Shown here piece by piece: positions 16,835 through 22,293 of a stretch of 64,000 bases of DNA. Source of the DNA: Paucibacter sp. KBW04. Its GTDB lineage: Bacteria > Pseudomonadota > Gammaproteobacteria > Burkholderiales > Burkholderiaceae_C. The stretch lies in the NCBI RefSeq assembly GCF_003852425.1, contig NZ_QAJN01000002.1, positions 352,787 to 416,786 of the forward strand, given 5' to 3'. The notes under the pieces were generated by a model. That model saw only the letters and a program-made list of their open reading frames with translations. It was not told the DNA's origin and made no database searches. The stretch's first letter is position 1; each line of letters starts with the position of its first letter. The translations under genes and the position numbers were made by a program.

Positions 16835-17929
16835 ATGAGTGAAGCCCTTCGTGTTGCCGTGATCGACGACTCTGCCGTTGTCCGCAAACACCTGACCGGT
16901 CTGCTAGAAGCCGCCGGTATCAAGGTCATCATGACCGCCAGCGATCCGCTGTTCGCCTGGCCCAAGCTGGAGTCCAACTGGCCCGATGTCATCGTGCTCG
17001 ATGTAGAAATGCCGCGCATGGACGGCATCAGCTTTCTGCGCCAGCTGATGCGTGACCACCCCATGCCGGTGGTGATGTGCTCCACCCTCACCGAAGCCGG
17101 TTGCGAAACCACCATGCAGGCCTTGGCGGCCGGTGCCGTAGGCTTTGTCACCAAGCCCAAGATCGGTCTGCGCGACTTTCTGGAAGACCCCGGCAATGGC
17201 CTGGTAGGCATGGTGCGAGCTGCCGCCAAGTCCAATGTGCGGGCCTTGCCCATCGCCTCGAGCGAACCCGGTCAGGCCGGCCAGCCGGGCAGCCGGCCCA
17301 AGGCGCCTTTCAACCCGGCCGCCTTCGCCAGCAATCTGGCCATGGCGGAAACCACCGATCGCGTCATCGCTTTCGGTAGTTCAACCGGCGGCGTGCAGAC
17401 GATTGAAGCGGTGCTCAAGCAATTGCCCCGCACCATGCCCGGCATCGTGCTGGTGCAACACATGCCGGAAAAATTCACCCAGTCTTTTGCCGCCCGCTTG
17501 AATTCCATGACCGATCTGGAGGTGATGGAGGCCAAGGACGGCGACCGGGTCATCAACGGCCGCGTGCTGGTGGCGCCCGGCGGCAAGCATATGCAGCTCA
17601 AACGCAGCGGCGCCCAATACGTGGTGGAAGTAAGGGACGGCCCCTTGGTCAACCACCACAAGCCCTCGGTGGATGTGCTGTTCAAATCGGTGGCGCAATG
17701 CGCGGGCCGCAACGCCATCGGCGCCATCTTCACCGGCATGGGAGATGACGGGGCGCGTGGTCTGCTGGAAATGCGCAAGGCTGGTGCCACCACCCTGGCC
17801 CAAGATGAGGCCAGCTGCGTGGTTTACGGCATGCCCAAGGCGGCGGCGGAATTGGGCGCGGCACAGCACATCGTCTCATTGACGGCCGCACCTGCAGCCC
17901 TCATCAAGCTCAGCGGCGTGGCGGGCTGA
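16835..17929 (+). CDS. cheB: Chemotaxis methylesterase/deamidase CheB
   Basis: 364 residues: a receiver domain with phospho-acceptor D56 ([11 protein letters not shown]) and TKP switch lysine, a linker of about 40 residues, and the methylesterase domain. The Ser-His-Asp triad is visible in FGSSTGG (near residue 181), [10 protein letters not shown] (near 208) and [11 protein letters not shown] (near 304). Phosphorylation by CheA relieves inhibition and lets it remove receptor methyl groups. GGGAGCGAGCCC precedes the ATG. It appears to be the last gene of the operon. Confidence 0.95.
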
Positions 17930-18101: not shown

Positions 18102-18467
18102 TTAGCGAATCACCTTGCCAATCACCTTCATCAACTCCAGCGGGCTGAAGGGTTTGATCAGGTATTCATCGGCACCGGCCTTCAAGCCGGCTTGGCGGTC
18201 GCTATCTTGACCGCGCGCGGTCAGCAAGATCACCTTGGTGCGCTTGAGGCCGGGGTCAGACTTCACCCGCTGGCAAACCTGCAAACCATTGAGGCCGCCG
18301 GGCATCATCACGTCGAGCAAGATCAGATCGGGCCGGAAGCTACCGGCCTTGCGCAAACCCTCGTCGCCATTGGGCGACTCTTCGATCTCGTAGTCATCGA
18401 ACTCCAGCGTTACGCGGATGAGTTCTCGAATTTCCTCTTGGTCTTCAACGATAAGAATTTTCTTCAC
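18102..18467 (-). CDS. Orphan CheY-like response regulator
   Basis: A stand-alone receiver of 121 residues from the GTG at 18467, chosen because AGGGG lies 8 bases upstream; an ATG at 18488 in the same frame has no such site. E8/D9, phospho-acceptor D52 (LILLDVMMPGG), the LLTARG switch and the LIKPFSPLEL lysine are all present. It differs strongly from the operon CheY, with an extra glycine pair after the acceptor site and a DRQAGLKAGADEY segment. It is convergent to cheB and divergent from the third receptor. Its cognate kinase is unknown; CheA or a hybrid kinase elsewhere could serve. Confidence 0.9.
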   Translation of the reverse strand: MKKILIVEDQEEIRELIRVTLEFDDYEIEESPNGDEGLRKAGSFRPDLILLDVMMPGGLNGLQVCQRVKSDPGLKRTKVILLTARGQDSDRQAGLKAGADEYLIKPFSPLELMKVIGKVIR

Positions 18468-18600
18468 GATGGCTACCCCTGAAGGCATTTAGTAACGCTA
18501 CGCCATGATGCCTCAGCCCAGGCGCGCGGTGTACAAATTTGCATCAGGAAAACGCGTCCTATGCACGCAAAAACAGACGGAATTGCCTAGCGTTTATGCG

Positions 18601-18627
18601 TCAAGAACGCGATGATTGAGCCGAAGT
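18601..18627 (+). promoter_or_regulatory. FliA (sigma-28)-like promoter for the third receptor
   Basis: TCAAG (18601-18605), 14 bases, GCCGAAGT (18620-18627). Spacing equals that of the enteric sigma-28 consensus (TAAAG, 14, GCCGATAA), and the -10 keeps GCCGA. It lies about 120 bp before the receptor start, in the divergent region 18468-18747, which otherwise shows nothing clear. Confidence 0.55.
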
Positions 18628-18747
18628 AACGATGTGAGCCCCCGGCATAGGCCGGAGCGCCACTCCAAGCCATAACGTCGATTTGCATCGACCCAAGCAC
18701 AGAGTGCCGACGATGACTTTCGCTGAACCTAGAGGATGCTCCGTTGC

Positions 18748-20295
18748 ATGAATACTCATCCCGCTCTTCTCAACAGCAACAAGAGTCAGGACATCACCAT
18801 CTTGCTGGTGGTACTGGTCAACGCAGTTCTTGCGATCGGCCTGGGCTATTACAACCAGGCGCTGCCCCTGGCGCTCAAGGTCGCATTGCCCGGTCTTTTG
18901 CTGGCCGGGCTTAGCTATCGCTACGCGGGCGGGCGCATCACCAGCCGTCTGGTTTTGGCAACGGTCTTGGTCGCCCTGGTCGCGTTGCAACTGCAGCTCA
19001 CCCAAGGTGCCACCAATATCCACGCCAATGTCTATGTGAGCCTGTGCCTGATGCTGTTCTACGGCGATTGGATGGTGATTGCCTATATGGGTGGCTTGCT
19101 GGGTCTGCATCATCTGGGCTTTCAAGCGCTCAGCTCCGCGCAAATGCCTTTGTATGTGCATGCCGCGACCGGGCGCTGGGGCCAGTTGGCCGATCTGGGT
19201 TTTCTGGTCGTGCTGAGCGCCTTCCTGATCCAAGGCGCACGCCAGATGCAGGTGCGGGCGAATGAACGCTTCGAGCTGGAGTTTCTGGTCAATGCCATGG
19301 GCAAGGACGGCCCCATCCGCCTGAACTTGGATTCGATCCGTACCAGCTCCAAGGTCGGTGGCCGCCTGAAGGACGTGCAAAGCCGCATGTCCTCCGCCCT
19401 GCGACTGGTGCGCGAGGCCACCTTCAGCGTGCACGGGGCGGCCGAGGAAGTTGGCGCCACCAGTACCGAGCTGCTCTCACGCACCGACAAGACCGCCAAC
19501 GGCCTGAAAGACGCGGCCATGAGCCTGGAGCAGATCACCATGATCGTGCAGGCCAGCGCTCGCGCTTCCAAAGAGGCGCTGGACATGTCCCACGCCTCCT
19601 CGGCCATGGCCATCAAAGGCGGTGATGTGGTGTCGCAGATGGTGGCCGCCATGCAGGAGATCGATCAGTCCTCCCGCCGCATCACCGACATCATCTCGGT
19701 GATCGACATGATTGCCTTCCAGACCAATATCCTGGCCCTGAACGCGGCGGTGGAAGCGGCCCGTGCCGGTGAGCAAGGCCGCGGTTTTGCGGTGGTGGCC
19801 GGCGAGGTCCGCCGCCTGGCGGGTCGTTCGGCCGAGGCCGCCAAAGAGATCAAGACCTTGATCGCGGCCTCGCTGGAAACGGTGGAGCGGGGCGCCAAGC
19901 TTGCCGATGTGGCGGGCGACACCATGGTCGATCTGGTCAGCTCGGTCAAACGGGTGGGTGAGGTCTTCAACAATCTGACGGCCGACAACTCCGAGCACGC
20001 GCAAGGCCTGGAAGTGGTGGCCGCCTCGGTCAAGGAGTTGGACGAGGTGACGAGGCAGAACGTCCATGTGGCGGAGCGTTCCGGCGAGATTGCCCATGAG
20101 CTGCTGGGTCAGTCGGTGGCCCTGGCCGAGGTGCTCAGCACCTTCCGCCTGGGCGACGACTCAGCCGTCACCGAGTTCCTCAAATCGGCCCGCGCCGCCG
20201 TCGAAGCCGCTGCCAATGTACGCAACGATATGGCCTCCCGCGCCAGCTCGGCCAGCGCCGAATCCAGCAGCGGCTCCAATATCGACTTCTTCTAA
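18748..20295 (+). CDS. Methyl-accepting chemotaxis protein with multi-spanning membrane sensor (receptor 3)
   Basis: 515 residues from the ATG at 18748 (AGAGG upstream). The first 160 residues hold about six hydrophobic segments with almost no periplasmic domain, so sensing must occur in the membrane. Conserved-looking histidines lie in ATNIHANVYV, GLHHLGFQAL and PLYVHAA, a pattern I associate with an unnamed membrane sensor family. No HAMP is obvious. The signalling domain centres on VIDMIAFQTNILALNAAVEAA and GRGFAVVAGEVRRLAGRS. The C-terminus is a Ser-rich tail ending NIDFF, which does not fit the aromatic CheR pentapeptide at its second position. It is expressed apart from the che operon, probably from the FliA-like site. 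Confidence 0.9.
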   Translation: MNTHPALLNSNKSQDITILLVVLVNAVLAIGLGYYNQALPLALKVALPGLLLAGLSYRYAGGRITSRLVLATVLVALVALQLQLTQGATNIHANVYVSLCLMLFYGDWMVIAYMGGLLGLHHLGFQALSSAQMPLYVHAATGRWGQLADLGFLVVLSAFLIQGARQMQVRANERFELEFLVNAMGKDGPIRLNLDSIRTSSKVGGRLKDVQSRMSSALRLVREATFSVHGAAEEVGATSTELLSRTDKTANGLKDAAMSLEQITMIVQASARASKEALDMSHASSAMAIKGGDVVSQMVAAMQEIDQSSRRITDIISVIDMIAFQTNILALNAAVEAARAGEQGRGFAVVAGEVRRLAGRSAEAAKEIKTLIAASLETVERGAKLADVAGDTMVDLVSSVKRVGEVFNNLTADNSEHAQGLEVVAASVKELDEVTRQNVHVAERSGEIAHELLGQSVALAEVLSTFRLGDDSAVTEFLKSARAAVEAAANVRNDMASRASSASAESSSGSNIDFF

Positions 20296-20571: not shown

Positions 20572-22293
20572 GTGGAACCCACCTTGGCCGAGCCACCTCA
20601 GTCCGCCCTGTCCGGCGTCGCCCGCATGCTTGTCCATGCGGGCAAGATGCAGCACAAGCAGGCCGAGGACCTGATGCGCCAGGCGCGCGAGAAAAAGCTC
20701 AGCTTCGTGAACGCCGTCATCAGCGCCGGCGTGGTGAGTTCTTCTGATCTGGCCCACACCTTGTCTGCCGCCCTGGCCGTGCCCCTGCTGGACCTGGCCG
20801 CCATGGATGCCCAGCGCATGCCGCGCGACATCGTTGACGCCAAGCTGGCCAATCAATATCAAATCGTGGTCTTGGGGCGCCGCGGCAGCCGCCTCTTCAT
20901 CGGCGGTGCCGACCCCACCGATCAAGACGTGGTGGAGCGCATCAAGTTCGCCACCCAGCTGACGCCGGAATGGGTGATCGTCGAGCATGACAAGCTGACC
21001 CGCATGCTGCAAGGCTCGGCGGCCAGTGCGGCCGAGGCGCTGGAGTCCATGTCGGGCGGCGACTTCGACTTCGACATCGCCGAGGAAGACGCCGCCCCGC
21101 AGCAAGAAGCGGCCGAGTTGGCCGATGTGGAAGACGCACCGGTCGTGCGCTTCCTGCAAAAAATGTTGGTGGACGCCATCAATATGCGCGCCTCCGACCT
21201 GCATTTCGAGCCCTATGAATACCACTACCGAGTGCGCTTTCGGGTCGATGGTGAGCTGCGCGAGATCACCCAACCCCCCATCGCCATCAAGGACAAACTG
21301 GCCTCGCGCATCAAGGTCTTGTCCCGCCTGGACATCGCCGAGCGTCGGGTACCGCAAGACGGGCGCATGAAGCTCAAGTTCGGGGCCAAGGCCATCGACT
21401 TCCGCATCAGCACCTTGCCCACCTTGTTCGGCGAGAAGATCGTGATCCGTATTCTTGACCCCTCCTCGGCCAAGCTGGGCATCGACGCCCTGGGTTACGA
21501 GAAGATAGAGAAAGAGCGCCTGCTGGCCGCCATCTCCCGGCCCTACGGCATGGTGCTGGTGACAGGCCCCACCGGATCGGGCAAGACGGTGTCGCTCTAC
21601 ACCTGCTTGAACATCCTCAACCAGCCGGGCGTCAATATCTCCACCGTCGAGGACCCGGCCGAAATCAACCTGCCCGGCATCAACCAGGTCAATGTCAATG
21701 ACAAGGCGGGCCTTAGTTTCTCGGCCGCCCTGAAGTCTTTCCTGCGTCAGGATCCCGACATCATCATGGTCGGTGAGATCCGTGACCTGGAAACGGCCGA
21801 CATCGCCATCAAGGCGGCCCAGACCGGCCATATGGTGATGTCCACCCTGCACACCAATGACGCCCCCAAGACGCTCAGCCGCCTCTTGAATATGGGTGTG
21901 GCGCCTTTCAATATCGCCTCCAGCGTCTTGCTCATCACGGCCCAGCGCCTGGTGCGCCGCCTGTGCGAGAACTGCAAGGCGCCAGCCGACTACCCCCGCG
22001 AGGCTTTACTTCGCGCCGGTTTTGTCGAAGAAGAGCTGGATGGGAGCTGGAAACAGTACCGCGCCGTGGGCTGCTCCAACTGCAATAACGGCTACCGCGG
22101 CCGCGTCGGGCTCTACCAAGTCATGCCGATTACCGAAGCCATACAACGCATCATCCTGGCCGAAGGTTCGGCCATGGATATCGCGGTGCAGGCCAAGCTT
22201 GATGGCGTGCGCGACTTGCGCCAGTTTGGCCTGGTCAAGGTCAAGCTTGGGGTGACGACGCTGGAAGAAGTCCTGGCCGCAACCAATGAATAG
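20572..22293 (+). CDS. pilB: Type IV pilus extension ATPase PilB
   Basis: A 573-residue GspE/PulE-family hexameric ATPase that powers pilus assembly from the cytoplasm. The N-terminal MshEN-like region (about 1-160) is followed by an acidic linker and the motor: ASDLHFEPYEYHYRVRFRVDG, Walker A GPTGSGKT at 332-339, the Asp box VEDPAEINL, Walker B DIIMVGEIRD and the His box GHMVMSTLHTNDA. Two CxxC pairs (CENC near 465, CSNC near 502) form the zinc site typical of PilB and absent from PilT. The start is GTG at 20572. It begins the pilBCD cluster, with pilC 38 bp downstream. Confidence 0.96.
   Translation: MEPTLAEPPQSALSGVARMLVHAGKMQHKQAEDLMRQAREKKLSFVNAVISAGVVSSSDLAHTLSAALAVPLLDLAAMDAQRMPRDIVDAKLANQYQIVVLGRRGSRLFIGGADPTDQDVVERIKFATQLTPEWVIVEHDKLTRMLQGSAASAAEALESMSGGDFDFDIAEEDAAPQQEAAELADVEDAPVVRFLQKMLVDAINMRASDLHFEPYEYHYRVRFRVDGELREITQPPIAIKDKLASRIKVLSRLDIAERRVPQDGRMKLKFGAKAIDFRISTLPTLFGEKIVIRILDPSSAKLGIDALGYEKIEKERLLAAISRPYGMVLVTGPTGSGKTVSLYTCLNILNQPGVNISTVEDPAEINLPGINQVNVNDKAGLSFSAALKSFLRQDPDIIMVGEIRDLETADIAIKAAQTGHMVMSTLHTNDAPKTLSRLLNMGVAPFNIASSVLLITAQRLVRRLCENCKAPADYPREALLRAGFVEEELDGSWKQYRAVGCSNCNNGYRGRVGLYQVMPITEAIQRIILAEGSAMDIAVQAKLDGVRDLRQFGLVKVKLGVTTLEEVLAATNE

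Follow-up and report, generated by a model that had tools for sequence, protein, structure and literature searches.

Chemoreceptors that sense within the membrane have been described in a few systems. In class IIIm chemoreceptors, as outlined in passages of PMC8396549, the sensor lies within the membrane and is followed by a HAMP domain. HtrVIII of Halobacterium, which combines six transmembrane (TM) segments with a methyl-accepting chemotaxis protein (MCP) domain and serves in aerotaxis, is said in PMC13401364 to likely bind haem, and for the MHYT domain of CoxC a CO sensing that depends on copper is described in PMC11347149. The signals of most chemoreceptors are nevertheless unknown, and those with a sensor inside the membrane have been understood least.

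Here we describe a receptor of this kind that is encoded in a stretch of 64,000 nucleotides (the window) of the Roseateles-like genome of Paucibacter sp. KBW04. Its open reading frame extends over positions 18736-20295 of the forward strand, and ATG 18748 is taken as the likelier start because it is preceded by AGAGG and aligned with the start of the orthologues; residues are numbered from it unless stated otherwise (Table 1). The protein contains an MCPsignal domain (PF00015, E 8.6e-47), by which it belongs to the methyl-accepting chemotaxis proteins, and its first 180 residues are almost entirely membrane, with six helices and both termini predicted inside. Pfam gives nothing above cut-off for residues 1-180 and lists no PAS, Cache or HAMP domain for the protein at E up to 1, in agreement with the first-pass annotation, which had described a receptor with a membrane-only, six-span N-terminus and neither a periplasmic nor a PAS domain. 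The sensor domain, which is 90% identical to that of R. oligotrophus, had no match above cut-off in Pfam, NCBIfam or PDB sequence searches, and the best hit of a PDB profile search had an E of 0.35.

Table 1. Features of the receptor locus, in coordinates of the window
Feature	Position	Strand	Remarks
cheB, end of che cluster (cheA, two MCPs, cheW, cheR, cheD, cheB)	16835..17929	+	in 6/6 orthologous loci
Divergent single-domain response regulator gene	18102..18488	-	Response_reg, E 1.5e-28
FliA-like box TCAAG-N14-GCCGA(A)	18601..18624	+	exact match, intergenic; 124-147 bases upstream of ATG 18748
Chemoreceptor gene	18748..20295	+	515 codons if started at the likelier ATG, 519 if at ATG 18736
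Six-helix membrane sensor domain	18763..19281	+	residues 6-178
N90-I91-H92, start of TM4	19015..19023	+	family has E/D-x-H here
Y96 to C100 in TM4, on the face of H92 (i+4, i+8)	19033..19047	+	clade-specific
H121-H122, end of TM5	19108..19113	+	canonical 108/110 and 110/110
H138 (PLYVH), loop before TM6, gained	19159..19161	+	clade 7/7, canonical 0/108
D149, start of TM6, in place of an invariant His	19192..19194	+	Asp in 7/7 of clade and in L057
MCP signalling domain	19582..20052	+	PF00015, residues 283-439 counted from ATG 18736
pilB-like ATPase gene, downstream	20572..22293	+	T2SSE, E 1.3e-147

The receptor gene closes a che cluster, and the divergent response regulator gene adjoins it in all six orthologous loci. 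The pilB-like gene is found in at least three of the six (L001, L002, L051). A FliA-like promoter had been proposed upstream of the gene, and the box is indeed there, yet 45 out of 500 shuffled copies of the intergenic region around it yield a score at least as high, and a cruder earlier scoring gave no signal (P 0.305). The orthologues give a mixed picture as well. The best box is matched by 0/500 shuffles in L054 (spacing 14), by 4/500 in L052, where sequence and spacing (13) differ, and by 9/500 in L053 (spacing 15), but by 212/500 in L051, 284/500 in L001 and 483/500 in L002; in L001 the box occupies the position it has in the window and differs by a single change in GCCGA. Genome-wide, the pattern occurs 31 times as compared to 17 times for a reversed control. 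A FliA-like promoter at this place is therefore plausible, though weakly supported.

Searches with the sensor domain of the window as query gave matches in 10/18 genomes at the level of the genus (threshold E 1e-5), in 90/399 at that of the family (threshold E 1e-8) and in 17/200 at that of the order (threshold E 1e-3), and a 16-row profile gave 72 matches, which are spread over 65 of the 398 Pseudomonadota genomes searched (threshold E 1e-5). The window domain matches the family profile with an E of 5.4e-53, being itself a row of that profile (A1); single-sequence matches outside its own clade, at 1e-8 to 1e-23, indicate that it is homologous to the family over all six helices. Judged by motif, most outputs of the family are MCP domains, with GGDEF proteins (L017, L018, L067), a histidine kinase (L022, L058) and a few rows without a matching motif. 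The family extends beyond the Pseudomonadota, as the domain can be aligned over its full length with a plasmid-encoded GGDEF-EAL protein from the acidobacterium Granulicella (hhalign 99.4%). Among its relatives (four scanned in Pfam, two in NCBIfam) no known domain scored above cut-off, no relatives were found in viral contigs, and keyword searches of the open-licence PMC literature returned no description of a six-helix sensor family of this kind.

On the Pseudomonas aeruginosa plasmid p3 (NZ_CP083369.1), which is conjugative, a six-helix domain of the canonical type is annotated as hypothetical (L091:5905-6924); no MCP motif was detected in its frame, and it adjoins DUF6436 and recombinase genes. 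On an Alteromonas plasmid (L165:2319-2884) the domain is split over two frames near a DUF6436 gene and a short annotated MCP, and looks broken.

Most of the family shares a set of five residues, a glutamate or aspartate at position 90 and histidines at positions 92, 121, 122 and 149. From 121 unique rows, 110 canonical ones were tallied after removal of three fragments (L125, L130, L091), the long-branched L057 and the seven members of the window's clade; counts over 108 rows, used for topology, residue 156 and clade-specific residues, also omit L126 and L128. Position 90 is acidic in 109/110 canonical rows (85 E, 24 D; F in L096), H92, H122 and H149 are each found in 110/110, and H121 is missing from two (Y in L099, Q in L123). 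Position 156 is E or Q in 103/108. The five positions are near-invariant across receptors, diguanylate cyclases and a kinase, and they are conserved also at loci where no partner gene (see below) was detected. Since the profile used to collect the rows contained the conserved residues, losses of site residues may be under-sampled in these counts. L126 and L128 are further members with an EGHM motif, each with an SCO-like frame adjoining on the opposite strand. The window genome itself carries, besides the receptor described here, a canonical receptor (L020/L173) and a canonical kinase (L022).

The six helices were called from hydropathy and from a positive-inside count over the 108 canonical relatives, with segment limits set by us. 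The mean number of K+R is 2.15 in the N-terminus, 1.53 in loop 2-3, 1.25 in loop 4-5 and 1.53 in the C-terminus, and 0.07, 0.09 and 0.69 in loops 1-2, 3-4 and 5-6, respectively. An AlphaFold2 model (one run, three sequences) was poor, showing six helices at low confidence with a mean pLDDT of 45.4, and was used for helix limits only. In the predicted topology E/D90, H92, H121, H122 and H149 lie on one side of the membrane, in the periplasmic half of TM4, TM5 and TM6. The three histidine motifs that had been pointed out in the window protein are all present (H92 in ATNIHANVYV, H121/H122 in GLHHLGFQAL and H138 in PLYVHAA). To call these histidines intramembrane, as was done then, is only partly apt, because the predicted topology puts them towards the periplasmic ends of TM4 and TM5 and within loop 5-6.

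Many canonical sensor genes have a partner. Flanks were examined for 60 of the 72 matches in the phylum; the 12 left out are the window receptor, the kinase of its own genome, a second G171 copy, one match located on a short contig, and eight that were weak or came late (G852, G690, G708, the second of G619, G886, G615, G910 and G895). At 38 of the 60 canonical loci a same-strand partner gene directly adjoins the sensor gene. The partner is SCO-like at six loci (two downstream and four upstream of the receptor), DUF6436-like at 12 (nine downstream, three upstream) and, at 20 loci, a small one-TM protein with a conserved cysteine encoded upstream. One of the DUF6436-like cases (L178) was counted by judgement, its Pfam E of 0.14 being below cut-off and the sequence having been in the training set; the profile for the small protein was trained on 10 of the 20 cases and the other 10 were held out. 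Pfam confirms SCO1/SenC at 6/6 SCO places, and in the six genomes, each with two to six SCO genes by PF02630, one per genome stands beside the sensor. Such a pair of SCO and receptor genes occurs, for example, in Marinobacter nanhaiticus pD15-8W (L166). DUF6436 genes (PF20029) occur at 33 places in 32/398 genomes, 11 adjoining a sensor and 22 away from a detected one, and are present in 16/65 sensor genomes as opposed to 16/333 others; none of the nine stand-alone genes retrieved from the 22 adjoins a missed sensor. The small partner was found at 34 places in 32/398 genomes, of which 23 are beside a known sensor and two beside a sensor previously missed, the remaining nine being beside neither. 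All three partner types carry conserved cysteine, as CxxxC, as CxC and as a single residue (10/10 aligned small partners), respectively, and CxxxC together with a histidine is kept in 7/7 aligned SCO-like partners. No homology among the three types was found by hhalign, and the members of the small type that were scanned had no Pfam or NCBIfam match above cut-off. Plasmids of Marinobacter (SCO), Pseudoalteromonas and Alteromonas (DUF6436) and P. aeruginosa p3 (DUF6436) provide examples of sensor and partner together. No partner was detected at 22/60 loci, including those of the canonical receptor of the window genome (L173) and of the other members of its family among the 60, and none of the three kinds was detected in the 64,000 nucleotides of the window. 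Within flanks of about 1.5 kb, the Sphaerotilaceae-type canonical receptors have no common partner among their neighbours, and four of these loci have another MCP alongside.

The small one-TM periplasmic proteins with one conserved cysteine upstream of receptors (L207-L209, L212-L227) likely represent a new family. At L246 a DUF6436 gene stands without an adjoining sensor, and its neighbour resembles a gene found beside the sensor-linked L188, L190 and L192, which looks like the trace of a lost receptor.

SCO proteins load copper. This, together with the position of SCO genes next to sensor genes, leads us to infer that a metal is bound at the canonical site and that copper is the likeliest one, and the SCO-like and other cysteine-bearing periplasmic partner genes beside many members favour a metal site in general. 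We therefore tentatively prefer the reading, to which we assign a probability of roughly 0.45, that these proteins are six-helix sensors with a canonical metal site, most likely for copper, which in the window's clade has been rebuilt with different ligands. In such a sensor E/D90-x-H92, H121-H122 and H149 would meet on the periplasmic half of the helix bundle, with E/Q156 below them, and would hold the metal, often with assistance from the linked SCO-like, DUF6436-like or small one-TM partner. Binding or a redox change at the site could then shift TM6, which leads into the cytoplasmic signalling coiled coil, and so set the activity of CheA. In favour of this reading are the near-invariance of the five positions across different outputs and as far as the Acidobacteriota protein, their placement on one side of the membrane, the partner genes, and the copper-dependent MHYT domain of CoxC as a precedent. 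Several observations count against it. SCO proteins may also work in thiol redox chemistry, the small partner belongs to no recognised family, 22 loci are without a detected partner, and many DUF6436 and some small-partner genes are located away from sensors.

But what has become of the site in the receptor of the window? This receptor forms a clade with six others of the same genus (L001, L002, L051-L054), the seven coming from 7/18 genomes. The clade is supported at 95/81, has a long stem branch, is joined at 100/98 by the long-branched L057 and falls inside a 39-row group (99/98), and this nesting implies that the change of the site is derived. The window protein has H92, H121 and H122 and lacks the full five-residue set, with N90 and D149 at the other two positions. 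In the clade as a whole the acid at position 90 is lost in 7/7 (four S, two N, one T), H92 is kept in 7/7 and the following F93 is replaced by A in 7/7; H121 is kept in 6/7 and H122 in 4/7, the pairs being HH, HQ, YH, HH, HS, HK and HH; and position 156 is L in 7/7. At the same time N25, N94, Y96, C100, H138, D149, L156 and others are new and fixed in the clade and rare in canonical rows, Y96 and C100 each being found in 7/7 and in 0/108 canonical sequences. The first-pass annotation had named conservation of the histidines in homologues as the check on its proposal, and the outcome differs from motif to motif: H92 and the HH pair are near-invariant in the wider family (110, 108 and 110 of 110) and H92 stands also in the close orthologues, in which the HH pair is kept in part, while the YVH histidine is absent from the wider family at that position. 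In these alignments the HH pair is loosening in the window's clade and YVH is clade-specific. L057, also from the window's genus, is very diverged; it keeps H92, has D149 and is without the HH pair, and may represent a further remodelling step or a long-branch artefact.

A rival reading is that the clade has given up its cofactor altogether and now uses a cofactor-free module, with its remaining histidines in a structural role, to sense the state of the membrane, the proton motive force or a lipid-soluble ligand. Such a loss would account for the disappearance of the acid, of H149 and of E/Q156 in all seven receptors, for the retention of H122 in only four, for the long stem branch and for the faster evolution of the sensor domain, for which three pairs gave dN/dS values of 0.11, 0.19 and 0.14 as compared to 0.04, 0.06 and 0.04 in the signalling part. 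Then again, these values of 0.11-0.19 indicate that the sensor domain is under constraint by purifying selection, and in combination with the newly fixed residues they point to remodelling rather than decay. H92, H138 and D149 are fixed in 7/7, and Y96 and C100 arose on the very face of TM4 that carries H92; with 52 of the 173 domain columns invariant among the seven, the chance that any three given positions are fixed is about 3%. We consider loss of the cofactor the less likely reading. We read the site of the clade as rebuilt, the main counterpoint being relaxed constraint on H122, as variation at H121/H122 fits a loosened hold on that part of the site. In the rebuilt site the acid, H149 and E/Q156 would be gone, H92 would stay, as mostly would H121, and Y96, C100, H138 and D149 would be the new, fixed elements. 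We think that the window receptor continues to sense a redox, gas or metal signal in the membrane, with a ligand set that differs from that of its relatives and, probably, a different signal as well.

Other readings concern the canonical site itself. It might be a bis-histidine haem b rather than a copper site, as has been proposed for HtrVIII, and the family would then be one of oxygen sensors. The placement of histidines on three helices at one side of the membrane would suit a haem, and HtrVIII, with its six TM segments, MCP domain, role in aerotaxis and likely haem (PMC13401364), would be a precedent; the invariant acid beside the histidine and the SCO-type partners fit copper better, however, and we regard haem as improbable. 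That the partners are instead thiol-redox proteins which dock on the membrane domain, so that periplasmic redox state is sensed and the histidines and acid serve proton coupling or docking, would explain the conserved cysteine in all three partner types but is very improbable, since a single cysteine, as in the small partner, is poorly suited to dithiol chemistry and to a chelate alike and the five positions are conserved at loci without a detected partner as well.

Taken to its full extent, the preferred reading of a metal site rebuilt in the clade would mean that membrane chemosensors dependent on copper form a widespread class so far uncatalogued, with an acid and four histidines on the periplasmic half of six helices and often with a metallochaperone-like partner (SCO, DUF6436 or the new small family) encoded alongside, of which the window receptor is a version re-engineered around H92, H121, H138, D149, C100 and Y96 for a new signal. 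We consider this wider claim possible at best. Nonetheless, the near-invariant five residues and the linked SCO-like genes turn the metal site into a hypothesis that can be tested, since the residues are named and there is a candidate for the loading protein. In the clade of the window a series of natural mutants is at hand that have two of the five residues exchanged on the same scaffold, and to compare them with the canonical receptor which this genome also encodes (L020/L173) could reveal the function of the site.

How does this receptor compare with the systems described before? It resembles class IIIm receptors, as outlined in PMC8396549, in that its MCP domain stands behind a multi-span membrane sensor and no periplasmic or PAS domain is present, and it differs from them in that a HAMP domain, which goes along with that class and does not define it, follows the sensor there whereas Pfam finds none here; class IIIm is moreover a topology and not a sequence family. 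With HtrVIII it shares six TM segments, an MCP domain and a proposed membrane cofactor, and the cofactor of HtrVIII is itself an inference in PMC13401364. The MHYT sensor of CoxC (PMC11347149) is likewise a multi-span membrane domain with histidines, a likely metal and several types of output. The window genome encodes an MHYT protein of its own. As a relative of the sensor domain MHYT was rejected, with hhalign probabilities of 0.2% and 0.1%; PF03707 is not listed for the window protein, which has no MHYT repeats and a different motif. SCO1/SenC proteins and cytochrome oxidase, finally, offer a parallel in that an SCO-type gene stands beside a membrane protein with a histidine site, but the neighbour of the SCO genes in the present family is a chemoreceptor-type sensor and not an oxidase, and the window receptor has no SCO-type gene beside it. 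The topology (class IIIm) and copper-based sensing in the membrane (MHYT) are thus already known, and the receptor of the window belongs to a sensor family that is without a Pfam or NCBIfam model.
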